From contig NZ_JAGFMD010000001.1 of NCBI RefSeq assembly GCF_017592825.1, forward strand, positions 1-64,000: a stretch of DNA of 64,000 bases. Direction: 5' to 3'. Position 1 is the first letter of the stretch. Every line of letters starts with the position of its first letter. Source of the stretch: Roseivirga sp. E12 (lineage in GTDB: Bacteria; Bacteroidota; Bacteroidia; Cytophagales; Cyclobacteriaceae). The translations under genes were made by a program, and so were the position numbers. Positions 9,546 to 29,195 of this stretch are shown piece after piece. The notes beneath the pieces are model-generated. The model was not told the origin of the DNA, ran no database searches, and was given only the letters and a program-made list of their open reading frames with translations.

Positions 9546-10322
9546 TTAATGGGCTAATAGGTGAGCTTCCATGAGTTGAACTGTGTAAATCGGAACTTGC
9601 TGCATGGGATAGTGGCCAGCATTTGAGACACCGCTAAAACTCACGTTTTCAAATTGTTGGAAAGCTTCTCGTTGTCCCTTTTCTCGCCATTGTTCTAAAT
9701 CATCTTCGCCATAGATGATCAATATTGGTTTAGTTGTTCCTTTCATTTCCTCAGAGAAGTCTTTAGTCAACCATTCGTCCATGTAGCTTTTCATCGCAGC
9801 CTGATTTGTTTGTGCATGTAATCTTTCCGCCCTTTTAAGGTTCCATATTTTAGGCAGTTTATCTGAGACAAGCATGCCATAACCTGTGGCAGCTACATCG
9901 GGATTCGTGATAATTTGACTGAAAAAGGCTTTTGTGTCGTCATCAACCTTAAAACCAGCAGAAGATACCGGAGTAATACCAACCATCGCTTTTATACGGT
10001 TTGTCTTGTCTTGGAGGATGGCTTTCTGAGCGGCCATGCCTGTCATAGAATGCCCTACTAAATAGAATTCGTGCCAGTCCAACGCATCCGCGACTTTGAA
10101 GATGTCGGAAGCGATTTCATCAATCGTAAAATCGCCATTGATGTCTTTCGAATGGCCATAACCTCTAACATCTACAAAGGCGTATGTAAATTCTGATGTG
10201 TTGAGATAGTTGACAGCAAGGGCCCAGTTCCCCTCAATATCACCCATCCAGTCATTAGTAATAATTACTTTTTTCGCACCGTAACCTTTTAGGGCGTAGG
10301 AGGGAATCATTGTTTTTTTCAT
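9546..10322 (-). CDS. Alpha/beta hydrolase under TetR control
   Basis: The 258-residue protein has an alpha/beta hydrolase core: FVDVRGYGHSKD after strand 4, the nucleophile elbow GHSMTGMA (GxSxG), an acidic residue region PILIIYGEDDLEQW, and the late His in NAGHYPMQQ. Size fits small carboxylesterases or epoxide-hydrolase-like members; the substrate is unknown. No signal peptide. It is directly downstream of a TetR gene on the same strand, and a near-perfect palindrome at 10361-10384 in the 74-base gap matches the one before the TetR gene. The enzyme is therefore likely induced when the regulator binds its ligand, possibly the enzyme's substrate. Confidence 0.88.
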   Translation of the reverse strand: MKKTMIPSYALKGYGAKKVIITNDWMGDIEGNWALAVNYLNTSEFTYAFVDVRGYGHSKDINGDFTIDEIASDIFKVADALDWHEFYLVGHSMTGMAAQKAILQDKTNRIKAMVGITPVSSAGFKVDDDTKAFFSQIITNPDVAATGYGMLVSDKLPKIWNLKRAERLHAQTNQAAMKSYMDEWLTKDFSEEMKGTTKPILIIYGEDDLEQWREKGQREAFQQFENVSFSGVSNAGHYPMQQVPIYTVQLMEAHLLAH

Positions 10323-10360
10323 GATGATTTGGTTTAAATGAGTATTAAAAGTTTGTTTAT

Positions 10361-10384
10361 ATAAGTAAGCAATCGCTTACTTAT
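10361..10384. promoter_or_regulatory. TetR operator upstream of the hydrolase
   Basis: A 24-base palindrome with arms ATAAGTAAGC and GCTTACTTAT and one central mismatch lies 39 bases upstream of the hydrolase start codon. Its core GTAAGC...GCTTAC is shared with the site at 10988-11003 before the TetR gene, which identifies both as probable binding sites of that regulator. Confidence 0.75.
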
Positions 10385-10396
10385 TGAGTAAAAAAA

Positions 10397-10975
10397 TTAT
10401 TTGATAGAGTTCATGGTAAAGTCTACAAAGTCGAGCAGTGCTTTTTCATCTCGAACTTTAACAGTAACTGTAAGTCCTTCGGTGCAGCCTATCAGATAAT
10501 TAGATAGCTTGACGAGATCTGTATTTTTGGCTAGTTTACCTTTGGATTTGGCTTTAGTAAGCAAGTCGAAAAAGGCCATATAAATCAAGTCAAAATAGCT
10601 ATCGAGCCTCTCCTTAACCTCTGGACTGGTTGTGCCAAATTCCATCGCAGTGTTTGCAAACAGGCAGCCATTTGGAGATTGTTTTGATTTGACAGCGACA
10701 ATGAAATCTGTGAAGAAGGTTCTGATGTCTTCCAAATCTCCATCTGAGGCGAGTAAGGGTTTTAGAATTACCTCTTTGTTCAGTTGCTCGTATTGCTGTA
10801 AGGATTCGATGAATAATTGGTCCTTGCTTTTAAATTCGGCATACAAGGTTCTCTGGTTGATCCCCATTTTGTCTTCCAGCATTCTGGCTGAGGTGTTTAT
10901 AAACCCATTATCCCAGAAAGCCTTCATGGCTTTTTCTAACACTTCTTGACGCTTGTATTTTTTTGATCGCCCCAT
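10397..10975 (-). CDS. TetR/AcrR family transcriptional regulator
   Basis: The 192-residue protein opens with a TetR-type DNA-binding domain (about residues 8-55): RQEVLEKAMKAFWDNGFINTSARMLEDKMGINQRTLYAEFKSKDQLF, in which GINQRTLYAEF is the recognition helix. The remainder is an all-helical ligand domain, with CLFANTAMEF in the position common to the TetR_C subgroup near YxAF/NemR-like repressors. It presumably represses itself and the downstream hydrolase through the two palindromes. The inducer is unknown. Confidence 0.92.
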   Translation of the reverse strand: MGRSKKYKRQEVLEKAMKAFWDNGFINTSARMLEDKMGINQRTLYAEFKSKDQLFIESLQQYEQLNKEVILKPLLASDGDLEDIRTFFTDFIVAVKSKQSPNGCLFANTAMEFGTTSPEVKERLDSYFDLIYMAFFDLLTKAKSKGKLAKNTDLVKLSNYLIGCTEGLTVTVKVRDEKALLDFVDFTMNSIK

Positions 10976-10987
10976 ACGTATATAAAT

Positions 10988-11003
10988 GTAAGCGATCGCT
11001 TAC
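10988..11003. promoter_or_regulatory. TetR auto-operator
   Basis: Perfect 16-bp palindrome GTAAGCGATCGCTTAC, 13 bases upstream of the TetR start codon on the minus strand. It shares its core with the 24-base site before the hydrolase, indicating autoregulation. Confidence 0.78.
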
Positions 11004-11109
11004 TTAATTACAATCAAAATGAAGCTTGATGTGAATTATGTTTGGAATAGGTAATTGGGAAGTTGGGTAATTAGGGAAATGGTGTTTAGGGATTTACTAC
11101 CATCTCACC

Positions 11110-11172
11110 ATCAGAGTCTTCTTTAGGAGACTCTGAGTAGGTTTTTTCGTGGGTGTTTATTGTTGGTGATAA
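11110..11172. repeat. ATCAGAGTC hairpin with conserved flank, second long copy
   Basis: ATCAGAGTC, TTCTTTAGGA, GACTCTGAG is followed by TAGGTTTTTTCGTG and TTTATTGTTGGTG, matching the flank of the copy at 9377. Relative to that copy about 35 internal bases are missing, consistent with deletion between the two hairpin halves. Confidence 0.8.
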
Positions 11173-11189
11173 GACCAACAATGGCAGGG

Positions 11190-11621
11190 TTATAATTTAT
11201 CATCCTTAGTTTCAAGGCTAATAAAATTGCTTTTATTCATACTAAGAATAATAATCAGTAAGACTGGAATTCCACTCATGGCCAACCAACCCCAGAAATA
11301 ATCGTCTCCACCATTAAGTATACCTGAAACAAAAACTATTAAAGCTTGCCCTGAGAACATTATCAAAAATGTCGAAAAATATAACTTCCATGGTTTGAGT
11401 GAGAAATAAAAAGCTAAACACCCAATAACAATTAGCAGGGTATTCAAAACGATCGCTGCATTTTCAACAACTTCAGAATTTGTATTAGCGCCAAACGGCA
11501 AGGCTAGCAAATATGATAATCCACCATTTAGGTATAATAGAATTATTTGAGTGACCGGAAAAATGGTTAACCCAACAGTAATTGAGATACCTAAAAATGG
11601 GCTTCTTAATAATAGCTTCAT
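11190..11621 (-). CDS. Hypothetical membrane protein, four helices
   Basis: A 143-residue hydrophobic protein with four likely transmembrane segments: FLGISITVGLTIFPVTQIIL, AAIVLNTLLIVIGCLAFYFS, LYFSTFLIMFSGQALIVFV and WLAMSGIPVLLIIILSM. The C-terminus is short and charged. No family is recognised. Twenty-one bases separate it from the rluF start-to-stop region upstream on the same strand (rluF ends at 11643), so it may be the last gene of a two-gene transcript. Confidence 0.65.
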   Translation of the reverse strand: MKLLLRSPFLGISITVGLTIFPVTQIILLYLNGGLSYLLALPFGANTNSEVVENAAIVLNTLLIVIGCLAFYFSLKPWKLYFSTFLIMFSGQALIVFVSGILNGGDDYFWGWLAMSGIPVLLIIILSMNKSNFISLETKDDKL

Positions 11622-11642
11622 ATTACAATCAAAAGCCTAATC

Positions 11643-12377
11643 TTAATCATGCGTTTTAGCCGAGTCAGAAACCAGTCGATTGATTTCTTTCAATTCTTTC
11701 TCAGTGAGGTCACGCCATTTACCTACGGGCACATCAAGGCCCACATTCATAATGCGGGTTCTCTTTAGTTTGGTTACCCGATAGCCGAGGTACTCACACA
11801 TTCTTCTGATTTGACGGTTAAGGCCTTGTGTTAATACAATTCGGAATCTGAAGTCACTCAATACTTCGACTTCACATTTTCTTGTGACAGTTTCGAGGAT
11901 AGGAATGCCATTGCTCATCTTTTTGGCAAAGTCTGGACGGATGCGCTTGTTCAACGTTACCATGTATTCCTTCTCGTGATGATTTCGTGCACGGAGAATC
12001 TTGTTGACAATGTCACCGTCATCGGTTAAGAAGATTAGCCCTTCACTTGGTTTGTCTAGTCGCCCAATAGGGAAGATGCGCGAAGGGTAGTTGATAAAAT
12101 CAATGATATTATCTTTTTCAACACCCACATCTGTAGTACATACAATGCCAACAGGCTTATTGAAAGCAATGTAAACATTCTTCTTGGCCTTTGGCCCAGA
12201 GATCAATTCACCATTAACATGAACTTCATCTCCCTCAATTATTTTCGTCCCCATTTCAGGAACCTTACCATTGATGGTGACCTTACCTTGTTCTATTAGC
12301 TTGTCTGCTGCTCTTCGAGAGCAATAACCAACTTCGCTAAGGTATTTATTGATACGGGTGGACTTGATTTCTGACAT
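11643..12377 (-). CDS. rluF: 23S rRNA pseudouridine synthase RluF
   Basis: The 244-residue protein has an N-terminal S4 RNA-binding domain (about 1-60, [25 protein letters not shown]) and a RsuA/RluE/RluF catalytic domain. The catalytic Asp lies in [18 protein letters not shown], and [20 protein letters not shown] is characteristic of RluF rather than RluB or Rsu[17 protein letters not shown] and [12 protein letters not shown] complete the family signature. It would isomerise the uridine equivalent to E. coli 23S U2604 (and, in E. coli, a tRNA-Tyr position). Start and length fit the family. Confidence 0.9.
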
Positions 12378-12502
12378 TTCAAAAGTGTAGCGTCAAAATT
12401 AATTGATTATCTCTGAAATCTATGTTGACCGCTTATAGTGAAGTCTATTGTTTATCAAAAGAATAGACATACTTTGAAGATTGAACCAACCAATATAGAA
12501 TA

Positions 12503-12844
12503 ATGACCACCGAAGAAGTATTGAACCATCATCTTGAAGCCTTCTCTGAAGGGAGTGCGGATAAGGTAATGGAAGATTTTACAGATGAATCTGTACTTAT
12601 TATTCCAGAAGCAACATTGACTGGAAAAGAAATCATCCATGGAGCTTTCACAGAGTTTTTTGATAGTATTTTCAAACCTGGAACCTATGAATTTACCATG
12701 GACCGTGTGGAGATTTCGGGAGATATAGCCTACATCGTTTGGCATGCCACGACATCCGCGGGAGAGGTAAAAATGGGAACGGACACATTATATGTGAAGG
12801 ACGGAAAAATTGCTGTACAGACATTTGCTATGTACGTAGAGTAA
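12503..12844 (+). CDS. SnoaL-like (NTF2-fold) protein
   Basis: A 113-residue protein with a SnoaL/NTF2-like cone fold pattern: MTTEEVLNHHLEAFSEGSADKVMEDFTDESVLIIPE at the N-terminus, a middle helix IIHGAFTEFFDSIF, and strands DRVEISGDIAYIVWHATT and GTDTLYVKDGKIAVQTFA. Such proteins include cyclases, isomerases and binding proteins; the substrate cannot be inferred. It is a single gene in opposite direction to rluF and upstream of the SBF transporter, with 175 bases between. Confidence 0.85.
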   Translation: MTTEEVLNHHLEAFSEGSADKVMEDFTDESVLIIPEATLTGKEIIHGAFTEFFDSIFKPGTYEFTMDRVEISGDIAYIVWHATTSAGEVKMGTDTLYVKDGKIAVQTFAMYVE

Positions 12845-13019
12845 ATGATAGTCTGAGATTATGGAATATAATAGTGAAGGTTGGGTTTTACCGTATTGGT
12901 AAACCTGCCTTTTGAGAATGGATTCATAACCTTGAGGCTCATAGCTTGAAGCTTTCGGAAGATTGACTAAGTTTTATATCTTGAGACTTTGAATCAATAC
13001 TTATAGACACTTCTAGGAC

Positions 13020-13889
13020 ATGGATCAACTATCAACCATTATTCTCGGTGCTTCTCTGTTTATCATCATGTTGGGCATGGGGCTTTCTCTTGTGACGGAT
13101 GATTTTAAGCGAGTGCTGGTTTACCCCAAGGCAGTTATCGTAGGCCTGGTAAGTCAGTTAATCTTATTGCCGATTATTGGGTATGGCGTGGCGTCCCTCT
13201 TCGATGTTCGACCAGAGATTGCAGTGGGAATTATGATCCTTGCAGCCTGTCCTGGTGGGCCTACTTCGAATCTAATTGCCCATATGGCGAAGGGAAATAC
13301 AGCCCTATCGGTTACGTTAACGGCTTTTAGTAGCTTCATTACTATTCTCACCATTCCTTTTATCGTCAACTTTGCATTAGAAAAGTTTATGGGGCAGAGT
13401 GAATTCATCAAGCTCGATGTTATTCAAACAATCCTTCAGGTAATGGTCATCATCATTATCCCGATTGTCATTGGTATGATGATCCGTAAGTACAAAACTG
13501 CCTTTGCCATGAAAATGGAGAAACCAGTACGAATTGCTTCTGGTGTGGTGATTATGCTGGTGATTGTAGGATTGTGTGTTAAGGAAAAGGACAATATGAT
13601 TCCTTACCTGCAAGAAGCCGGACTTGTGTCACTTGTGCTTAATGTAGTGACCATGTTTGTGGGTTACCGCATAGCGAAACTCTTCAGTTTGAATGATAAA
13701 TCTGCCGTTTCCATTGCAATAGAGTCAGGTATTCAGAATGGCACTTTGGCGATATCGATTGCCATCGTACTGCTTAACAATTCAGAGTTTGCGATAGCAC
13801 CAGCCGTTTACGGCTTGTTAATGTTCTTAACAGGGGGCGTTGTCATTTACTGGTCGAGTAGGAAGTTTGCCAGGTACAAAAGCAACTAG
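13020..13889 (+). CDS. Bile acid:sodium symporter (SBF) family transporter
   Basis: The 289-residue integral membrane protein has eight to ten hydrophobic segments and SBF/ACR3-type motifs: an early MLGMGLSLVTDDFKRVLVYPK, the cross-over region AACPGGPTSNLIAHMAKGNTALS, and the second one IAIESGIQNGTLAISIAI. These match Na+-coupled transporters of the BASS type; cargo in bacteria ranges from bile acids to pantoate or 2-keto acids and is unknown here. Its last four bases overlap the stop of the convergent DUF2589-type gene. A decayed copy of its 3' end lies at about 16583-16790, beyond the DUF2589 operon. Confidence 0.9.
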   Translation: MDQLSTIILGASLFIIMLGMGLSLVTDDFKRVLVYPKAVIVGLVSQLILLPIIGYGVASLFDVRPEIAVGIMILAACPGGPTSNLIAHMAKGNTALSVTLTAFSSFITILTIPFIVNFALEKFMGQSEFIKLDVIQTILQVMVIIIIPIVIGMMIRKYKTAFAMKMEKPVRIASGVVIMLVIVGLCVKEKDNMIPYLQEAGLVSLVLNVVTMFVGYRIAKLFSLNDKSAVSIAIESGIQNGTLAISIAIVLLNNSEFAIAPAVYGLLMFLTGGVVIYWSSRKFARYKSN

Positions 13890-14380
13890 CTAATCTGCCT
13901 CTTTAGGATAGATTCGTAACCTTCTACCAATACCTTAAGGCCTTCAGAAGTTTCCTGAGGAGTGATGGTAATTTCTAGCTTGGCACTGTTCTTCTTAGGC
14001 TTCTTTAGAAAGCTAAGACCGCTACTTTTCTTAGGAAAGTTGAGTTCAATTTCGCCATCAACAATTTCCATCTCAAAGTCAGCGGTCACAACTGCTTTTT
14101 CGACCTGAGACATCTGAAGAGGTACCAAGGTGATTAGGGGTACGTGTACCTCACTTGTAATTTCATTGCCAGCCGAATCGACACTGGGGTATTCAAGGAT
14201 TACGGTTTTAGGGTCTAGTATTGTCTTTTTTGTTACCTCGTCAGTTTCTGGATCTTTTATTTCTCTGGTGTTCTCTTCAAAGTATTTGTCCAGTAGACCT
14301 ACATTTTTATCCATCAACGAGTCACTCGCATTGATGATGGCATCATGTATGGCGTTTACGAATGATTTAAAACTGATCAT
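13886..14380 (-). CDS. DUF2589-type protein, last gene of the operon
   Basis: This 164-residue protein shares the central signature of the operon's two larger DUF2589 proteins: VHVPLITLVPLQMSQVEKAV followed by TADFEMEIVDGE, corresponding to the VPLNSLA...FDMEI block. An N-terminal amphipathic helix (FVNAIHDAIINASDSLMDKN) replaces their PLxAAxKAN helix. A basic KKPKKNSAKLEITI strand and terminal helix LKVLVEGYESIL follow. There is no signal peptide. It begins inside the stop of the upstream gene (ATGA overlap at 14377-14380), so translation is coupled. Biochemical role unknown. It converges on the SBF gene with a 4-base overlap. Confidence 0.7.
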   Translation of the reverse strand: MISFKSFVNAIHDAIINASDSLMDKNVGLLDKYFEENTREIKDPETDEVTKKTILDPKTVILEYPSVDSAGNEITSEVHVPLITLVPLQMSQVEKAVVTADFEMEIVDGEIELNFPKKSSGLSFLKKPKKNSAKLEITITPQETSEGLKVLVEGYESILKRQIS

Positions 14381-14727
14381 ATTTTTTGGGCTGACGTTTG
14401 AGGTATTGAAGTATAGGCATCCAGTATTTTGACAATACCCGGAGAAATACTCAAGGATTTTGGCTGGTGCTTGACGGTAGAACGCTGCAATTCTCCTGTA
14501 CGAATCTTCGCGGTGTTCATTTGGTTCTTAATCAAGGGTGCTTCGGTCATGAGCATATATTCCAGTGAAGACAATGCTGTACCCACTTTGGGCTTCGACT
14601 GGAGTGTACCTTTTTTGTTAAAGGAAGACTTGACTGAGCTCGATTGAATGGACTCAGTAGCGGCTTTAATGCCTTTTTTCAGGAGCTTGTCCCGAATAGA
14701 CTTGAACAAAGATTTGAATTTGTTCAT
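14377..14727 (-). CDS. Small basic protein sharing the DUF2589 C-terminal helix
   Basis: A 116-residue basic protein. The N-terminal part (MNKFKSLFKSIRDKLLKKG) is a cationic amphipathic helix. Residues about 52-80 (LSSLEYMLMTEAPLIKNQMN) resemble the PLxAAxKAN helix of the neighbouring DUF2589 proteins by position. The tail LSISPGIVKILDAYTSIPQ matches LPLPVGVLAILDLYTKNIQ of the gene at 14946, so I read it as a reduced family member lacking the central beta domain. It lies 9 bases after the zinc-ribbon gene and overlaps the next gene by 4 bases. Function unknown. Confidence 0.65.
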   Translation of the reverse strand: MNKFKSLFKSIRDKLLKKGIKAATESIQSSSVKSSFNKKGTLQSKPKVGTALSSLEYMLMTEAPLIKNQMNTAKIRTGELQRSTVKHQPKSLSISPGIVKILDAYTSIPQTSAQKI

Positions 14728-14736
14728 TGGCTTGTT

Positions 14737-14934
14737 CTACTTGGCAACATTCTTTTTTAACTCCTCAAACTTTTCCATCGTTTCTTGAACAAGAGGCTTG
14801 CTCTGGTCAGATAGTCCAATAGCGGCTTGACAGTTTGGGCAAGAAAACTGAACTCCCATCAAGAGCTGTTTGGTATCAAAAGGTATCTTAGTCTGGCAGA
14901 CAGGGCAAGGGATACTTTGGTCTAAATTAATCAT
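14737..14934 (-). CDS. Small zinc-ribbon protein
   Basis: A 65-residue protein with two CxxC knuckles, CPVC at about residues 9-12 and CPNC at about 32-35, spaced as in a zinc ribbon that binds one Zn2+. A C-terminal charged helix (VQETMEKFEELKKNVAK) could be an interaction segment. It sits 11 bases after the DUF2589 gene at 14946 and 9 bases before the small basic protein gene, within the operon. Such ribbons can be nucleic-acid or protein adaptors; which one is unknown. Confidence 0.78.
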   Translation of the reverse strand: MINLDQSIPCPVCQTKIPFDTKQLLMGVQFSCPNCQAAIGLSDQSKPLVQETMEKFEELKKNVAK

Positions 14935-14945
14935 GCTATTGTCTT

Positions 14946-15554
14946 TTATTCTTCAATTGATTCGGGTTTCTTTTCCTCAGGTAAGGGTTGAATATTTTTA
15001 GTGTAAAGGTCTAGAATGGCCAAAACTCCAACAGGTAGAGGTAGAGGTCCGGCATTGATTCCAACCTTTAATTTACTGGTAGATTGGGTGTTGTTTTTGT
15101 CACCGCTAGGGCCGCCACTGATCTTACCGTTCAGCTGAGCCTTTTTATCCATTATATTGTTTTCCCCAACTTTTTTTGTGGACTCCTTTGAGGTAACCGA
15201 GGTAATCTCCATATCAAAGTCTACGGTTACTTTGTCAATGGCCAGGGAGTTTAACGGCACTAGACATAGTAAAGGGATATTGAAGGTCAACTGCGCTTTT
15301 TGAATATAGCCTGGGTCAGTCGGCTTCTTTGAATCATCAATCACACCTCTAACCATTGACATTTCTATCATCACTGGCTCATAAGTCTTACCGTCTTCTT
15401 TGGTAAAACAGTATTCCAACAAAAAGCGTGTTTGTCCAGTGACCATCATTACGTTGGCCTTGGAGGCTGCCACAAGAGGAGCGCTAATGATGGATTCAAT
15501 GTTCAGCTCCTTGCCGAAGCTGGGTTTGAAAGACTGATTTTGAGATTCAGGCAT
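14946..15554 (-). CDS. DUF2589 domain-containing protein
   Basis: A 202-residue protein with the DUF2589 layout: helix SIISAPLVAASKANVMMVTGQTRFLLEYCF (about 20-50), strands EPVMIEMSMVRGVIDD, central FNIPLLCLVPLNSLAIDKV then VDFDMEITSV, a Gly/Ser/Asn-rich loop (about 140-160), and a C-terminal NAGPLPLPVGVLAILDLYTK helix. No signal peptide or transmembrane helix is seen. The family's function is not known to me. It is the second gene of the operon, 85 bases after the first, in a gap that holds a hairpin. Confidence 0.85.
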   Translation of the reverse strand: MPESQNQSFKPSFGKELNIESIISAPLVAASKANVMMVTGQTRFLLEYCFTKEDGKTYEPVMIEMSMVRGVIDDSKKPTDPGYIQKAQLTFNIPLLCLVPLNSLAIDKVTVDFDMEITSVTSKESTKKVGENNIMDKKAQLNGKISGGPSGDKNNTQSTSKLKVGINAGPLPLPVGVLAILDLYTKNIQPLPEEKKPESIEE

Positions 15555-15632
15555 ATATATATGCTAAATGATTTAATCGAATAGAAAGCTGATGATCACC
15601 ACCAACTTCCTATTTCGACTCACCTATTGTCG

Positions 15633-15648
15633 TCTGCTTTTAAGCAGA
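15633..15648. other. 16-bp palindrome at the end of the first DUF2589 gene
   Basis: TCTGCTTTTAAGCAGA is a perfect palindrome that overlaps the last codons and the stop of the gene at 15640. It has no T-run on the minus strand, so a processing hairpin between the first and second genes is more likely than a full terminator. It could set unequal expression of the two. Confidence 0.35.
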
Positions 15649-16407
15649 TAATGTTATTGGCTGAATGGATTGCGTAAAGGCTTCAATAATAGTGTTGACT
15701 CCTTTAGGCAATGGTAATTGACCAGCATGGACATTTACCGTGTACTTGGCCGAGTTACTTTTTTGATAATGTGTGCTATGCGTGGAAGAATCCTTGGAAT
15801 CATAACTCGCACTACCTTTTACAGTTACAGAGAAAGGTCCCCAGCCGGCCTTGGCCTCGAAGCTACCCTCAGTTTTTACCTGCTTTTCAGAGGTTTGAGA
15901 TGCCTCTTCCGCAAAACTGGATTTTACCTCCATTTCGAAATTAATGTCGACCGTCTCCACAGCTAATGAGTTAAGTGGCACCACTGTCAGCATTGGAAGG
16001 TTAAATTCCGTTTTAACGTTTTGAATAATAGCTGCGCTTGCCGGAGTAGGCGGTACTGGCGGAGTCGCAGTCGGGTCTCCAGCAGATGCAGGTGTTCCTG
16101 GAGTAATAACCCCGCGGGTTAGTGTCATGACAATCATAACAGGAGCATAGTTGTTATGTGCTGGTATAGCGGGTGTTCCAATCACTTCTGCTACAGGTGG
16201 TGTGGCGGTTGGATCTCCTGCTACCGGAGCAACGGCAGGTGTATCTCCTACGGGAGTAACTGTAAAACAGGTGTCCAGCATAAACTTGGTTTGGGTAACA
16301 GCCATTGCTGCATTGGCCTTGGCAGCGGCAGTTAAAGGACCTCCGATAAGAGACTCCATGGGCAGCCCTGAAAACTGTTGGGCCATTGATAATAAAGCGG
16401 TTTCCAT
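15640..16407 (-). CDS. DUF2589 domain-containing protein with Pro-rich insertion
   Basis: The 255-residue first gene of the operon starts METALLSMAQQFSGLPMESL and has the DUF2589 helix IGGPLTAAAKANAAMAVTQT, strands YAPVMIVMTLTRGVI, the core FNLPMLTVVPLNSLAVETV then INFEMEVKSS, and the C-terminal helix LPLPKGVNTIIEAFTQSIQ. It differs by two Ala/Pro/Thr-rich insertions (about residues 55-85 and 100-125), both containing GDPTATPPV, which look like flexible, slippage-prone loops. A Lys/Gly/Ser segment (WGPFSVTVKGSASYDSKDSS) follows. No signal peptide. Function unknown. Confidence 0.85.
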   Translation of the reverse strand: METALLSMAQQFSGLPMESLIGGPLTAAAKANAAMAVTQTKFMLDTCFTVTPVGDTPAVAPVAGDPTATPPVAEVIGTPAIPAHNNYAPVMIVMTLTRGVITPGTPASAGDPTATPPVPPTPASAAIIQNVKTEFNLPMLTVVPLNSLAVETVDINFEMEVKSSFAEEASQTSEKQVKTEGSFEAKAGWGPFSVTVKGSASYDSKDSSTHSTHYQKSNSAKYTVNVHAGQLPLPKGVNTIIEAFTQSIQPITLSA

Positions 16408-16582
16408 AATTTTTTGGTTTTGGTATTGATTCGTGTTTATTAAAATCCTCCTGATCGTTCAAGAGTTGTGTGTAAGGAAATGTATGGATTTATATGGACT
16501 TATCAAATACAAAAATGATTGGCTGCCCTGTTTTGGACGATTTTGGCTGAAATCAGCTAGACGACATAAGGAGGCCTTTCCT

Positions 16583-16790
16583 TATATAAATGCGGTAGAT
16601 ATACTGATCGGCATTCAGTATCTCTTACGAATTCAATATCTCCTCAATTGTAATGATTGGGTCCTACAATAATTCGGAGTTTGCGATAGAAACTGCTGTT
16701 TACGACTTATGGATGTTATTAACGGAAGGAGTAGTGGTGCAATGTGCGAATCGAAAGTTTACCAAGTGTGTAGAAAATAGGCCACCTTAA
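16583..16790 (+). pseudogene. Decayed 3' fragment of an SBF transporter gene
   Basis: From 16668 to the TAA at 16788-16790, the forward frame reads NNSEFAIETAVYDLWMLLTE then GVVVQCANRKFTKCVENRPP. This aligns with the C-terminus of the intact SBF protein (NNSEFAIAPAVYGLLMFLTG...SSRKFARYKSN). Upstream, INAVDILIGIQ at about 16590-16620 parallels KSAVSIAIESGIQ, but a frame change and about 10 extra bases intervene. No complete gene is present, so this is a relic of a second SBF copy. The DUF2589 operon lies between the relic and the intact gene. The rest of the 410-base gap (16408-16817) shows nothing else. Confidence 0.75.
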
Positions 16791-16817
16791 CTAGGAAAGC
16801 CTATTCCTTATGGATTC

Positions 16818-17786
16818 TTATTTGTTCTTTATCTTTTCACCTCGGACTGGAGAATAGTCTTTCTTCAATTCGCCATTGACCATAATCTCTGCGAAGAAAC
16901 TTTTTGCTCCAGTGGCATTGACCATATTTTCGACATTTTGGATATGGAAATGCAAATGTGGCTCTGAAGAATTCCCTGAGTTACCACAAAGTCCAAGAAG
17001 CTCACCTTGTTTTACTTTTTGCCCCTGCTTGACCACGATAGACTGTTGCTTGAAGTGTGCAAAAAATAGATATTCATCATTGGCAGTTTTAATGATTACT
17101 GTGTTACCAGGAACATAAATTGAATTCATTTGCCCTGGTACATTGTCTTTGACCCCATCAACTACCAAAACTACCTCTCCATCCGCAGGGGCAATGATGT
17201 CCTTGCCGAATACGTAATAATCTTCGTTAGTTCTACCATCGGTTTTGTAAGACCTTCCATTTTCATCTCTGATTACCAAATCAAAGGCTCCTTTCTGAGA
17301 TTCAGTTGTTACGTGATAATTTTGTGCCTCAGTATCTCCACCCCAGAAAACACTCCATTCCTCTTTGAATGGAAGGATTAAGGGTGTCGTATTTCGCTCC
17401 AGTATCGGAAATTCTTCATCATTGAAAGGAACAACTTGTAACCCATTGATTTGAGATTCACTGTCAATCGAGAGGTTGATTCCAAAGAGCCCACGTTCAA
17501 AAGTTGTTTTGTACAAGGCTACCGTCCCATTCGAATATCTAACGAATTCTAACTGCTCCATTTTGCCCGCCTGTGAGTTCAATCCAGTTAAGAAGTTAGA
17601 TAGAGCATCTTGTGGTACGGCTTGCTTCATTTGGGGGTTGAACATGGTGAAAATGGCCTCGTACGCATTGCCATTGTAATTCTCTTTGAATAGGTCGGCT
17701 ACTTTTTTCAGCTTATCCGATTCATTTTGTGCTAAAGCGATGTGTGCTGCAAGTAGAAGTGCAAAGCACATTAATATAGTTCTCAT
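16818..17786 (-). CDS. Secreted M23 family metallopeptidase with DUF3887-like domain
   Basis: The 322-residue protein starts with signal peptide MRTILMCFALLLAAHIALAQ. Residues about 25-120 look like a DUF3887-type domain (LKKVADLFKENYNG...TFERGLFGINLSIDSESQI). The C-terminal LytM/M23 domain has a conserved GNTVIIKT strand, FFAHFKQQSIVVKQGQKVKQ, and the zinc site SSEPHLHFHIQN with HxH. Intact ligands suggest an active endopeptidase on peptidoglycan cross-links or another peptide in the periplasm. It is 29 bases downstream of the membrane protein gene that overlaps the sigma factor gene, so it may belong to that envelope-response operon. Confidence 0.9.
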   Translation of the reverse strand: MRTILMCFALLLAAHIALAQNESDKLKKVADLFKENYNGNAYEAIFTMFNPQMKQAVPQDALSNFLTGLNSQAGKMEQLEFVRYSNGTVALYKTTFERGLFGINLSIDSESQINGLQVVPFNDEEFPILERNTTPLILPFKEEWSVFWGGDTEAQNYHVTTESQKGAFDLVIRDENGRSYKTDGRTNEDYYVFGKDIIAPADGEVVLVVDGVKDNVPGQMNSIYVPGNTVIIKTANDEYLFFAHFKQQSIVVKQGQKVKQGELLGLCGNSGNSSEPHLHFHIQNVENMVNATGAKSFFAEIMVNGELKKDYSPVRGEKIKNK

Positions 17787-17815
17787 GGGTTTTGTTTTTA
17801 ATTGATAATATGACC

Positions 17816-18478
17816 TTAGTTTTCTAGTTGTTTTTGTAGCCGATCTATGTCATCAATAATCGGCTTTAATGTCTTTTTAACTGCTCTTTTGTTGATCCAT
17901 ACTATCAGGACATTGAATAGGGCAATAAATCCAATCATTCGAAGCTTAGATTCCATGGTAACTGGAAGGTACTCTAATAGACCTGACTCCCAGTTAGAGA
18001 TGGATGGGTCCCCGATGCCTAAAATGAAGACAACATTGGCAATGAAAGGAGGGAGGACATACCAGTACAGAACACTGTTTAGCAGCTTCGCTTCCTGTTC
18101 CATATTTTGACGTTGGTTTTCTAATTGCTGCCTGAATGACTGGGTTAGATCAATAGGCCTCTTTAGGCTTCTATTGTTCCTTAATTTGTACACCAAGTAG
18201 ACGAACCAAGTGATGGTCAAGAGGCAACCTATTCTAGCAATGATAAAGGGAACCTCGTAGGCAAAGTACATAAACAGTATGGCTCCGAGGGCGGAAGCAA
18301 TTATCTCTCTTCTGTCTCTGTTCTTAATTACATTATTAAGGCGCTTTGCCCTCTTGTTAAGGTCAGTAAGTAAGTTTGACAAATCAATCTTAATCTTTTC
18401 CACTTGAGAGGAATTCCTCCATATGTCTTTCAGCTCTTGCTCTACCATGTCATGATAATTTTGGGGTGATACACTCAA
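17816..18478 (-). CDS. Membrane protein overlapping the sigma gene, candidate anti-sigma
   Basis: A 220-residue protein with a cytoplasmic N-terminus (MSVSPQNYHDMVEQELKDIW...LTDLNKRAKRLNNVIKNRDR) and about four hydrophobic stretches: EIIASALGAILFMYFAYEVPF, CLLTITWFVYLVYKL, YWYVLPPFIANVVFILGIG and MIGFIALFNVLIVWI. A helical segment (RQQLENQRQNMEQEAK) lies between the pairs. The start overlaps the sigma-factor gene by 29 bases, so the two are translationally coupled, the usual layout for an anti-sigma factor. It lacks a recognisable zinc anti-sigma motif (HxxxCxxC), so the role is inferred from context only. Confidence 0.7.
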   Translation of the reverse strand: MSVSPQNYHDMVEQELKDIWRNSSQVEKIKIDLSNLLTDLNKRAKRLNNVIKNRDRREIIASALGAILFMYFAYEVPFIIARIGCLLTITWFVYLVYKLRNNRSLKRPIDLTQSFRQQLENQRQNMEQEAKLLNSVLYWYVLPPFIANVVFILGIGDPSISNWESGLLEYLPVTMESKLRMIGFIALFNVLIVWINKRAVKKTLKPIIDDIDRLQKQLEN

Positions 18479-18968
18479 AAAGTAATTTTCTAATTCTCTT
18501 CATTTTAACAGCTACATGATTCTCTGTCAGCCCAGTGATAATTGCAATTTCTTTATAGGGCAGGTCTTCCAGATAAAGCACCATAAGTGACTGATCGCTT
18601 TCATTTAAAATGTCAATACAATCGCGCAATGCCTGGTACTTTTCCTCTTGACTTCGATCGTCAGTCTCGATTGGTGTAAATAGAATTGACTCCAACCGAA
18701 CCGTCTTACCATTCTGCTTTTCTAGTTTCAACTTGGACCTTTGTCCTACATTCAGGGCAATTCTATAGATCCAGGTGTCGACATTCGAGTTTCCCTTGAA
18801 ACTCGGTAGTGATTTCCATATCTGGTAAACCACTTCTTGGAAAAGGTCTTGAGGCTCGATAGGAGAGACGGCATAGACCTTACAGATTCTATAAACCTTC
18901 TCTTTATTGTTTTCTAATATTTCCTCGAAAGTCTGTTTAGCCAATTTTTCTGTTTCAGAGTTTTTCAC
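18450..18968 (-). CDS. ECF-type RNA polymerase sigma factor
   Basis: The 172-residue protein has sigma-70 region 2 (about 15-85), with DLFQEVVYQIWKSLPSFKG and TWIYRIALNVGQRSKLK, and region 4 (about 110-165), with LNESDQSLMVLYLEDLPYKEIAIITGLTENHVAVKMKRIRKLL, which contains the helix-turn-helix. Its length and two-domain form fit group IV/ECF factors. It heads a likely operon with an overlapping membrane protein and an M23 peptidase, suggesting a role in an envelope or growth response. The target promoter is unknown; the promoter region (18969-19138) is shared with the divergent nitrilase gene. Confidence 0.9.
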   Translation of the reverse strand: MKNSETEKLAKQTFEEILENNKEKVYRICKVYAVSPIEPQDLFQEVVYQIWKSLPSFKGNSNVDTWIYRIALNVGQRSKLKLEKQNGKTVRLESILFTPIETDDRSQEEKYQALRDCIDILNESDQSLMVLYLEDLPYKEIAIITGLTENHVAVKMKRIRKLLFECITPKLS

Positions 18969-19138
18969 TGTCTACTAATCTTAGTGACAGGGTGGATAGA
19001 AATATGACAAGAAATTTGAAATTTATTTTCCTTCTGTCAAACTGTCCTGATTTTCAGTGTATTGCGAATTGATAATTTTTTGCGGCAGCTTGTATAATAT
19101 CAACATTCCTGCTTCTTATTAATTCCTATCTTCCCACT

Positions 19139-20074
19139 ATGTCAAAGTACAAGGTATCGGTGGTGCAGGCGGCACCTGTTTTGTTCGATTTGGAGGGTAC
19201 GCTCAATAAGGTGGAAAGCTTTGTGAATGATGCTAAAAAACAAGGTGCTAAGCTTATTCTCTTTCCAGAAGCTTTTGTCTCTGCCTATCCGCGTGGTCTA
19301 AGCTTTGGAACGGTAGTAGGAAGCAGAAAAGAGGAGGGTAGATTGCTATGGCAAAGGTATTGGGAGTCTTCGATAGCTGAAGGTGACACCTCTTGTCATC
19401 GACTGGGACAAATGGCCAAGGAGGCCGAGAGCTTTCTGGTGATCGGAGTCAATGAAAAGGACAATGTTTCGGGAACGCTGTATTGTAGCATGTTCTATTT
19501 CGGGCCGGATGGATCGTTTCTTGGAAAGCATAGAAAGGTTAAACCCACGGCTCAGGAACGCCTGATCTGGGGCGAAGATGACGGTAGTACGTTATCGACT
19601 TTTGATACAAGTTTAGGTAAGATTGGTGGACTCATTTGTTGGGAAAACTATATGCCCTTGGCTAGAATGGCCATGTATCAAAAGGGTGTTCAACTCTATT
19701 TGGCACCAACTGCTGATAACCGAGAAGGCTGGCAACAGACCATGCGGCATATTGCCTTGGAGGGGAGATGCTTTGTCTTGGGGAGCAATCAGTTTGTTAC
19801 CAAGGATATGTACCCTAATGACCTGCCGGGGATTGCTGACTTAGAAGATCAGCCAGAGGTAATGGCCAATGGAGGATCTATTATTGTCGATCCACTGGGT
19901 AATGTGCTGGCCGGACCGCTTTGGGGTGAGGAAGGAATCCTTACCGCTGAAATCGACCTAGACCAGATCATACAAAGTAAACTGGACTTTGATCCGATAG
20001 GTCACTATCATAGACCTGATATATTTGAATTTAAAGTAAATCGTCAACCACCGATTAGGGTAGTTGATCAGTAA
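19139..20074 (+). CDS. Nitrilase/carbon-nitrogen hydrolase
   Basis: The 311-residue protein has the catalytic triad of the nitrilase superfamily: Glu in LFPEAFVSAYP (near residue 45), Lys in HRKVKPTAQERL, and the nucleophilic Cys in GGLICWENYMPLAR. The ENYMP motif and the HRKVKPT block are those of true nitrilases and cyanide-degrading enzymes rather than aliphatic amidases. It would convert a nitrile to the carboxylate and ammonia; the substrate is unknown. The upstream region is shared with the sigma factor gene, and a repeat of the CGTCATTGCGA type follows. Confidence 0.92.
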   Translation: MSKYKVSVVQAAPVLFDLEGTLNKVESFVNDAKKQGAKLILFPEAFVSAYPRGLSFGTVVGSRKEEGRLLWQRYWESSIAEGDTSCHRLGQMAKEAESFLVIGVNEKDNVSGTLYCSMFYFGPDGSFLGKHRKVKPTAQERLIWGEDDGSTLSTFDTSLGKIGGLICWENYMPLARMAMYQKGVQLYLAPTADNREGWQQTMRHIALEGRCFVLGSNQFVTKDMYPNDLPGIADLEDQPEVMANGGSIIVDPLGNVLAGPLWGEEGILTAEIDLDQIIQSKLDFDPIGHYHRPDIFEFKVNRQPPIRVVDQ

Positions 20075-27884: not shown

Positions 27885-29195
27885 TTAGTGGATTTCCGCC
27901 CAGGCATAGCCAAAGACCGTGTCCAGATGAAAATCATCTACATGAATTGATCCCGTAACCTTGTAAACACCTTCATATTTATGGACTAATGTTACCTCCT
28001 GATTAGGGCGAACAGCCTCGCCTTTCAATATCGCATAGCCGTTCTCATCACCGGGTTTACCCAGGGTTAAGGTAAACTTTAATGGAAACTGATGATCACC
28101 TTCTTTTGGCCAAAGGTCACTTGATTCGAAAGAGATGTCTTGGATATCCCAATCGTGCCATGCTTTTAGGGCTGTGTTTGGTTCTTGGGCTGAGTGACTA
28201 TGATAGAAGCGAGCTGTTGGTAAAGTAGATGTGCCAGTTGAACCTGGAATAGGCATTTCAACCTGTGAAAACATTAAGGCACCAGAAAAGTCATTTAGGC
28301 TTAGTTGTGGCGGAAACTGAATGGCAAGAAACTGCCATGTTGCATCATTCTTCAATACCGGATAAGATGCTTCTGAAAAACTCTGTGTTACATAATCTAC
28401 CCACAAGTGTCCTTGTGAGCCTGAAGAGAATGGTTTGCCGTCTTTTGTGATGTTAAAACTGGTGACCTGAAGTATTGGTAGAGAATAGTAATAAGAACCT
28501 TCTCCACTCATGTTATCTTGTCCGTCCTGTAGATAAGTTTCCACATTACCACCAAATTCATTCATTACAGCTTGGTGCTGCCCTGCATTTAACCATTGCG
28601 GTAAAAAGCTTGATGGACCATAGCCTATGGCAACAGTTCCCATACTATCGGTAAGTTCAACTTCGTATACCCAATTCGCTAAATCAAAAGCGATGGCATT
28701 ACCCGTTAACTTATATTTAGCACCTGGCTGCCCCATTTTACCTGAAACAAGAGCAATGGTGATTTTTTCATCCTCGATTAACAGGTTTAAGTTCGCTGTT
28801 TCCGAAAACGGGTTGGATTGAAAAGTGACTTTGTCTTTGTCCAATAGAAACGGAGCTACCACAACACCGTCAGTTTCATTATTGCATATGGAGAATTCAG
28901 CAAGGTAGGGCGCTGAGCCTGGAAGCCCGAATTGCTGTTGTATCATGGAACTGAACCCTACTATATCACCATTGTCAGGGATTAGGTGACCGTAAAAGTC
29001 AAGTGACGCCATGTTATAACCGGGATGAGGTTGCGAAAGCCATGAGGCAAGCCCTTCAGCGCTTTTACTATGTGGAAGTGTCGTTGTATTTGAGTAAGAA
29101 CAGGAAGTGCCGGGCTCAAGTGAAGTAGGTGCTTTCGATTGATTAGCGGCTTTTTTTGACTCTGTTAGTTGTGAGTTGTTTAATAAACGTGACAT
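27885..29195 (-). CDS. CrtC/AttH-like lipocalin-fold protein
   Basis: A 436-residue protein whose middle and C-terminal parts resemble the CrtC/AttH-type double beta-barrel: YYYSLPILQVTSFNITKDGK, SQGHLWVDYVTQSF (position of the G-x-x-W-x-D-H motif in CrtC-like hydratases), FLAIQFPPQLSLND, and the repeated AWHDWDIQDISFES end. The N-terminal 45 residues are Ser/Thr-rich and have no signal peptide. Related proteins add water to carotenoid-type polyenes or act on lipids. Here the catalytic residues cannot be verified, so a carbohydrate/lipid binding or hydratase role is only possible. Confidence 0.6.
   Translation of the reverse strand: MSRLLNNSQLTESKKAANQSKAPTSLEPGTSCSYSNTTTLPHSKSAEGLASWLSQPHPGYNMASLDFYGHLIPDNGDIVGFSSMIQQQFGLPGSAPYLAEFSICNNETDGVVVAPFLLDKDKVTFQSNPFSETANLNLLIEDEKITIALVSGKMGQPGAKYKLTGNAIAFDLANWVYEVELTDSMGTVAIGYGPSSFLPQWLNAGQHQAVMNEFGGNVETYLQDGQDNMSGEGSYYYSLPILQVTSFNITKDGKPFSSGSQGHLWVDYVTQSFSEASYPVLKNDATWQFLAIQFPPQLSLNDFSGALMFSQVEMPIPGSTGTSTLPTARFYHSHSAQEPNTALKAWHDWDIQDISFESSDLWPKEGDHQFPLKFTLTLGKPGDENGYAILKGEAVRPNQEVTLVHKYEGVYKVTGSIHVDDFHLDTVFGYAWAEIH

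Follow-up and report, generated by a model that had tools for sequence, protein, structure and literature searches.

What might a bacterium build from a short run of co-directional genes that encode several versions of one protein domain together with a small zinc ribbon? The question is raised by five genes in a stretch of 64,000 nucleotides from Roseivirga sp. E12 (contig NZ_JAGFMD010000001.1, positions 1 to 64,000), which we call the window. An earlier note on this DNA had read them as an operon for a multi-subunit particle or assembly. Several paralogues and a ribbon in a fixed, co-directional order do fit a multi-subunit assembly, and this suggestion is partly supported. Our preferred reading, to which we give a probability of about 0.36, is that the five products would assemble in the cytoplasm into a hetero-oligomer that works, or is released, alongside lysis enzymes and variable effectors. 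The genes and their immediate neighbour are as follows.

15640..16407, minus strand: gene A, 255 aa, DUF2589, first gene of the module (PF11655, E 1.4e-25, 90.9 bits)
14946..15554, minus strand: gene B, 202 aa, second DUF2589 paralogue (PF11655, E 9.6e-25, 88.2 bits)
14737..14934, minus strand: zinc-ribbon gene (Zn), 65 aa, CPxC-x18-CPxC with four cysteines, no signal peptide seen
14377..14727, minus strand: gene H, 116 aa, optional, basic N-terminus, weak match to the A profile
13886..14380, minus strand: gene C, 164 aa, third and more distant DUF2589 paralogue (PF11655, E 1.3e-10, 42.3 bits)
13020..13889, strand opposite to the module: BASS-transporter-like gene, overlapping the end of gene C by 4 bases

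Genes and proteins of the module

The five open reading frames are spaced by 85, 11, 9 and -4 bases, exactly as first claimed (genes H and C overlap by 4 bases), and the module is flanked in the window by the BASS-transporter-like gene and an M23 peptidase. The description as DUF2589-type proteins applies to three of the five: A, B and C exceed the Pfam gathering cut-off for PF11655 (23 bits), while H and the ribbon have no match to this model. Compared profile to profile, C matches A/B with an hhalign probability of 96.8 (E 2.2e-10). A VPLxSxA signature, said to be shared by all three, is present in A and B (VPLNSLA) but not in C, which reads VPLQMSQ; its second half, F(E/D)MEI, is found as FEMEV, FDMEI and FEMEI, and the claimed form is thus only partly exact. 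The conserved C-terminal helix is predicted in both of the proteins that were modelled (A, residues 235-248; C, residues 145-163). In Pfam, DUF2589 is annotated as a family of unknown function, to which A, B and C belong by curated cut-off, whereas the ribbon, the A-B-Zn-C order and the probably decayed H fall outside the family model.

The product of gene Zn is indeed a ribbon: it carries CPVC and CPNC, scores below every Pfam cut-off and has four cysteines that are invariant in its relatives (36 aligned proteins, a chosen subset of those found). It resembles the LysW-type and MJ0042-type zinc ribbons in being a small CxxC...CxxC protein, with weak matches below their cut-offs (17.9 and 20.1 bits), but aligns as a separate family with its own invariant residues and fixed DUF2589 neighbours.

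Gene H matches the A profile weakly (11.1 bits). A gene in this slot, or room for one, was seen in six of the 67 loci compared below, and only that of locus L085 matches DUF2589 clearly (38.7 bits). Against a sister genome, H is only 59.5% identical and is called fast-evolving for this reason, the other four genes being 95-99% identical (A 98.8%, B 95.5%, Zn 98.5%, C 95.7%). Judged from these comparisons, H is probably a decayed, fast-evolving DUF2589 copy that retains the C-terminal part. The module genes are under purifying selection (for A, dS 1.17 and dN/dS 0.006). For the flanking genes, identity to the sister genome is 94.1% (BASS), 92.2% (RluB) and 87.6% (nitrilase).

The earlier note had also seen no secretion signals, and none of the five proteins has a strongly hydrophobic N-terminal stretch in a simple Kyte-Doolittle window over the first 45 residues. 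The highest value, in B, is 1.68 (limit 1.8), compared to 2.63 in the M23 peptidase used as a control. Modelled as single chains, A (mean pLDDT 72.6) is predicted to have a long N-terminal helix, antiparallel strands and a C-terminal helix, and C reaches a pLDDT of 87.3. Neither model has a Foldseek match in the PDB at E <= 0.001. When sequence profiles were compared with solved structures, A had no match and the C-type protein matched only two haemolysins, at a non-significant E of 1.2. Within positions 10000-20000, no structured RNA was matched at the module at the Rfam gathering score. A Bacteroidota-type promoter pattern occurs 3 times in the window against 3.0 expected, and a sigma-70-type pattern 5 times in the region against 6.6 expected.

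Conservation and spread

One A/B-family pattern retrieved 72 loci, of which 67 were kept as non-redundant; the pattern was built on the A/B family, which guarantees A in all 67 and leaves out distant layouts. Before counting, five loci were excluded: L056 and L123 (one genome, with the module split across two contigs), L104 (truncated), L075 (a near copy of L074) and L122 (A protein identical to that of L120). The ribbon is present in 66 of the 67 loci, and in the sole miss, L109, the contig ends about 300 bases downstream. A C-type gene is found in 64 (missing from L070 and L109, where contigs end, and from L071), and two or more A/B-type genes occur in 48 loci. Within each locus the module genes, 254 in all, point the same way. 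Together, the constancy of the ribbon, of C and of strand lies far beyond chance, and a chance operon was rejected. The commonest gene order is A-B-Zn-C (35/67). A lack of conserved neighbours across genomes would have spoken against an assembly; instead, the DUF2589 set and the ribbon are kept across several phyla. Of the co-occurrence proposed for the ribbon and the small basic gene, the first part stands, but H is not constant.

The hosts belong to several phyla and include both isolates and metagenome bins, the latter so numerous that some hosts may be misassigned. The module occurs in 3 of 19 genomes of the genus and 28 of 395 sampled genomes of the phylum. Such a patchy distribution suggests transfer, and the module has probably moved horizontally. 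Another DUF2589 layout has a second protein of about 230 aa, which was considered as a C-type relative and rejected (hhalign probability 0.7%).

Wall hydrolases and other enzymes beside the module

Some relatives' modules adjoin hydrolases and other enzymes, a point absent from the earlier note, as are the probable decay of H and the patchy spread. In 11 of the 67 loci, a co-oriented peptidoglycan hydrolase lies within 1 kb. These are GH25 (L057, L058, L077, L083), M15 (L090, L097, L118 and, split into two ORFs, L115), a pesticin-like gene (L105; 24.5 bits, just below its cut-off of 25.8) and CHAP followed by a holin (L087, holin by Pfam, and L089, by similarity). Nine of the eleven are co-oriented at 15-210 bp from the module, and the families are unrelated. 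Ten hosts are Bacteroidota and one is Colwellia. A hydrophobic N-terminus is absent in eight of ten hydrolases tested and present in the GH25 of L077 and L083. Scanning of the adjacent genes revealed a holin in L087 and L089 only, and none flanks the window's module.

How tight is this linkage? In 32 module-bearing genomes, picked by us from the 72 loci and mostly isolates, 4 of 19 GH25 genes adjoin the module and 4 of 17 M15_4 genes lie within about 210 bp of it, with about 0.001 expected within 150 bp for either family; these odds are optimistic, since the choice of families followed inspection of the neighbours and all eight GH25/M15 cases fall among the 32 genomes. In the other 40 loci, no module is adjoined by another full GH25 or M15 gene. 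The eight cases perhaps reflect three evolutionary events (Pedobacter; Flavobacterium/Chryseobacterium; Myroides).

Other DUF2589 layouts have comparable neighbours: GH25-like in L024, M15 plus a patatin phospholipase in L135 and L138, CHAP in L141, peptidoglycan-binding proteins in L148 and L031, and a muramidase about 2 kb away in L129. Protease-type neighbours are C58 (L099 and L104, the latter outside the 67), trypsin (about 0.9 kb away, L082), S8 (L133) and OTU (L024). In L145, one DUF2589 protein bears Ig-like Big_1 domains, which are usual in extracellular proteins.

By the searches made, which tallied 83 of 88 adjacent genes and listed the 25 commonest of 72 families, no hydrolase was recognised adjoining the module in 56 of the 67 loci or in the window itself. 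The window's nearest candidate, the M23 peptidase 410 bp upstream, was rejected as a partner because its N-terminus is hydrophobic and, in the sister genome, it does not adjoin gene A.

The hydrolase linkage hints at a complex for killing or lytic release. In the mechanism that we propose, A, B and C (and H where present) would have diverged from one small alpha/beta domain, and the ribbon would serve as the adaptor or hub of their hetero-oligomeric cytoplasmic complex. Some cells would make the complex, which would be released when the cell is opened by a wall hydrolase, in most cases one that lacks a signal and in some accompanied by a holin. The freed complex may then act on a neighbouring cell, or help partner enzymes reach one. 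We infer assembly of the products, lysis-driven release and a cargo role for adjacent enzymes; for the window's copy, which has no adjoining partner enzyme, such an enzyme would need to be encoded elsewhere. Several findings count against a lytic role: the 56 loci with no hydrolase recognised, the bias to Bacteroidota, the two hydrophobic GH25 N-termini, and the adjacent enzymes' lack of a shared targeting or docking domain (none found beyond the peptidoglycan-binding domain).

A rival reading is a cytoplasmic scaffold or regulatory complex with no part in lysis. The DUF2589 paralogues would build a particle or filament inside the cell around the ribbon, and the enzymes would be neighbours because the module travels in exchangeable islands where lysis and toxin genes also gather. 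We regard this as possible, if somewhat doubtful. It agrees with the absence of a visible export signal on the five proteins and of a recognised hydrolase at most loci. Moreover, fewer Pfam families occur near the module than far from it, as island genes might show (72 among 83 near genes versus 150 among 83 distant ones, 83 of 88 genes having been taken on each side; the near families listed are the 25 commonest of the 72, and single-member families may be hidden). Up-regulation of DUF2589-related genes on lactate, reported for Archaeoglobus (PMC3949148), also favours it. On the other hand, nine co-oriented hydrolases of unrelated families at 15-210 bp are tighter than loose island membership predicts.

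Signal-less hydrolases require passage across the membrane, and the module could itself make the hole: DUF2589 proteins, in a holin-like or pore-forming role, would breach the membrane for them or insert a beta-hairpin into a target. In the A model, residues 181-200 do form an amphipathic hairpin within a disordered loop, with a value reached in fewer than 0.001 of 2000 shuffles; for the N-terminal helix of C, which is weakly amphipathic, the fraction is 0.03. However, the hairpin is predicted at low confidence (pLDDT about 42), no solved structure was matched, the amphipathicity of the A and B N-terminal helices does not exceed chance (fractions of 0.54 and 0.27), and the first 45 residues of all five proteins lack a strongly hydrophobic segment. 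A separate holin is also already present in L087 and L089. We consider a hole-forming module rather improbable.

Comparison with known systems

A close parallel to our preferred reading, a complex released or working with lysis enzymes, is Type 10 secretion. As described in PMC10847048, Tc toxin complexes assemble in the cytoplasm and are released by a holin/endolysin/spanin cassette, and the module shares signal-less multi-gene products and, at some loci, adjoining phage-type wall hydrolases, twice with a holin. It differs in that a holin was recognised at two loci only and in that its products, whose release is proposed, match no known released toxin.

Contractile injection systems and the T6SS resemble it in pairing a conserved module with variable adjacent effector-type enzymes. 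Their effectors include enzyme kinds like those adjoining the module. The window's proteins, however, have no tail or tube match in Pfam or PHROGs, and the A and C models none in the PDB. The T6SS was rejected in the organism's own genome, which has no match to PF05591 (VipA/TssB). An extracellular contractile injection system was also rejected, there being no linked sheath gene: the one sheath match, which scores below its cut-off, lies on the same contig at a distance of about 416 kb. Known anti-phage defence was set aside as well (PADLOC, five window proteins, no match at E 0.01).

Could the module be left over from, or serve, a phage or contractile injection system? Some loci have phage-type endolysins and a holin next to them, the ribbon matches phrog_4875, a PHROG of unknown function (2.9e-6), C resembles a single unnamed BFVD model at E 1.3e-4 and a TM of about 0.5, and a relative occurs on one viral-collection contig and in one 4-kb unannotated faecal phage record. 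Yet relatives are nearly absent from viral-contig scans (A2 and A10 none, A9 one contig), and PHROGs offer nothing for A, B or H at E 0.1 and for C only a match at 0.027; phage structural proteins were rejected on these grounds. Sheath genes are no commoner in genomes with DUF2589 (3/7) than in the rest (19/52), and VipA is lacking, as noted. A phage or contractile origin is largely refuted and very improbable.

The module appears new in kind, a view that rests on the lack of a match to known systems in the libraries searched, the mechanism itself being a proposal. The fullest form of the reading—an undescribed, non-phage, horizontally spread, small heteromeric particle, made of paralogous copies of one domain for which solved structures offered no counterpart, assembled in the cytoplasm, freed by dedicated wall hydrolases and carrying or enabling exchangeable effectors across many phyla—is tentative and, taken as a whole, unlikely. 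At the least, DUF2589 is the core of a fixed gene module, a family for which we found no solved fold and which is repeatedly linked to wall-cutting and effector-type enzymes. If the proposal is true, the module would encode a bacterial protein complex of a new kind that is released or delivered; otherwise its products are still cytoplasmic proteins, strongly conserved as a set, with a function yet to be assigned.

The five genes and their products

Five minus-strand genes, separated by 85, 11, 9 and -4 bases, make up the module, and their positions and strand agree with what the earlier note had reported:

15640-16407, minus strand: A, DUF2589 (PF11655) paralogue
14946-15554, minus strand: B, DUF2589 paralogue
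14737-14934, minus strand: CxxC...CxxC zinc ribbon (Zn)
14377-14727, minus strand: H, small basic gene, optional
13886-14380, minus strand: C, DUF2589 paralogue

The DUF2589 assignment stands, as three of the five genes score above the Pfam cut-off, and C is related to A/B also by profile-profile comparison (hhalign 96.8%, E 2.2e-10). The motif said to be shared by all three, VPLxSxA...F(E/D)MEI, is exact in A and B and inexact in C. In line with the reported lack of secretion signals, a strongly hydrophobic N-terminus is present in 0/5 proteins. All four ribbon cysteines are invariant across 36 aligned proteins, a chosen subset of relatives.

H matches the A profile weakly (11.1 bits), and the gene occupying the H slot in L085 (L-numbers denote relatives' loci) matches it clearly (38.7 bits); these two matches make a decayed copy of a DUF2589 gene the probable identity of H. 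Identity to the sister genome is 95.5-98.8% for A, B, the ribbon and C, with synonymous sites near or past saturation, and 59.5% for H. On this contrast, the first four genes are, at the sequence level, tightly held, and H is drifting or adapting fast.

AlphaFold2 models of A (pLDDT 72.6) and C (pLDDT 87.3) predict a helix, antiparallel strands and a helix, to which A adds a low-confidence hairpin. Neither model had a match reaching E 0.001 in a PDB fold search; the C model resembles one unnamed viral-library model (E 1.3e-4). Sequence profiles compared with solved structures gave no match for A and only two haemolysins, at E 1.2, for C. Amphipathicity, which bears on a possible pore-forming role, exceeds chance in the predicted hairpin of A; in the N-terminal helices it is not above chance for A and B, and weakly so for C.

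Distribution and gene order

DUF2589 occurs in 3/19 genomes of the window's genus (own genome counted), 7/59 of the whole set of relatives and 28/395 of a phylum sample. A/B-family searches of species genomes recovered 72 loci, and 67 were kept after five were removed. The co-occurrence of ribbon and DUF2589 genes, a check proposed in the earlier note, was found at 66/67 loci, the sole exception (L109) lying at a contig end. C is present in 64/67 and lacking from L070, L071 and L109, two of them contig-end loci; 48/67 have at least two A/B genes. Module genes are always co-directional (254/254, 67 loci). The order A-B-Zn-C is found in 35/67. Of the 19 loci from Gammaproteobacteria, 17 have C ahead of A, and 11 of these show the plain arrangement C-A-Zn. 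The module is real and conserved, and probably mobile.

Host labels were followed on a rapidly built tree with 71 A proteins. They change 12 times for Bacteroidota and seven for Pseudomonadota, with well-supported branches forcing at least two each. Both labels cluster more than in shuffles, yet neither forms a single clade, and a Cognaticolwellia A protein is placed among Bacteroidota. From these sequences, transfer is the likely cause of the scatter, subject to the caveats of paralogy, weakly supported branches and binning errors.

Wall hydrolases and other neighbours

A set of 83 adjacent co-oriented genes matched 72 Pfam families, against 150 for 83 distant genes of the same loci. Scanned one by one, 11/30 neighbours (two of the 30 from another layout) matched a Pfam family at E 0.01. 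At 11/67 loci, ten in Bacteroidota and one in Colwellia, a peptidoglycan hydrolase lies within 1 kb of the module, and these enzymes belong to unrelated families.

Table. Genes beside the module, and near DUF2589 in other layouts
Module, GH25: L057, L058, L077, L083
Module, M15: L090, L097, L118; L115 (gene split into two ORFs)
Module, pesticin-like lysozyme: L105 (score just below its cut-off)
Module, CHAP then holin: L087; L089 by similarity
Other layout, GH25-like gene and OTU: L024
Other layout, M15 and patatin phospholipase: L135, L138
Other layout, CHAP: L141
Other layout, PG-binding proteins: L148, L031
Other layout, S8: L133
Other layout, muramidase at ~2 kb: L129

Across 32 whole module-bearing genomes, which include all eight positives, 4/19 GH25 and 4/17 M15_4 genes adjoin the module against ~0.001 of each expected within 150 bp; these families were picked post hoc, and the eight positives may represent three events. 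The L115 M15_4 gene lies 208 bp away. Further GH25-like genes are more distant or opposite-strand (L085, L065, L116, L087).

A C58 protease domain occurs near the module in L099 and in L104 (outside the 67), with a match under its cut-off in L077. L082 has a trypsin domain at ~0.9 kb, and a ricin-type lectin adjoins A in L066. In four non-redundant loci of Gammaproteobacteria (L099, L103, L105, L120), a NusG-like regulator lies no more than 62 bp upstream. The window's own module has no such hydrolase, protease, lectin or NusG-like gene beside it.

On the same strand, the stretch just upstream of the window's module (16818-18968) encodes an M23 peptidase, which carries DUF3887 and has a hydrophobic N-terminus, as well as a probable membrane protein and an ECF-type sigma factor. 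The gene adjoining A in the sister genome (L019) is a nitrilase in place of the peptidase. Elsewhere, a four-repeat OAA-family lectin (821-1627; PF17882, 1.6e-78) precedes a putative family-18 glycosyl hydrolase, judged by eye (1702-2625), and a 436-aa protein (27885-29195) has no Pfam match at E 0.01.

Among other layouts, the patatin genes lie at L135:8729-9766 and L138:9634-10671, the former's protein strongly matching PADLOC phospholipase-effector models (1.7e-60). In a plasmid-borne layout (L128, L129, L131) a distant DUF2589 gene comes first, followed by an A-like gene and then by a member of a separate ~91-aa family. An 'IAHGN' motif marks a protein of ~120-142 aa, protease-like by eye, that adjoins DUF2589 genes in two layouts (L059, L145, L147); it had no Pfam match (L059 copy) and no PHROG or PADLOC match (L147 copy).

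Known systems and a reading of the module

In a PHROG search A, B and H had no match at E 0.1, C had one (E 0.027) and the ribbon matched a PHROG of unknown function (2.9e-6). PADLOC matched none of the five window proteins. In a viral-contig scan two of three queries had no relative and the third had one contig. For type VI secretion, the own genome has no VipA. Sheath genes are uncorrelated with DUF2589 (3/7 bearing genomes vs 19/52 others). Sheath matches occur in 22/59 relatives; one match to a contractile sheath, below the cut-off at 27.1 bits and in a 532-aa frame, lies in the own genome at G000:C11:432460-432753 (L150).

In a literature search that left bioRxiv preprints and most subscription journals outside its scope, PF11655 was not mentioned and DUF2589 was mentioned in only one paper, on Archaeoglobus, which reports AF0414-AF0417 as up-regulated in growth on lactate (PMC3949148).

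Because the parts are signal-less, the subunits paralogous and the partnership with wall hydrolases repeated, we suggest that the products form a cytoplasmic complex that works together with lysis and with variable effectors. An internal scaffold is nearly as likely, and a pore-forming role is a less likely alternative. As a complex used with lysis, the module proteins would assemble, be released and act on a target, a proposed manner of action like that of toxin complexes whose release depends on holin/endolysin cassettes, as described in PMC10847048.
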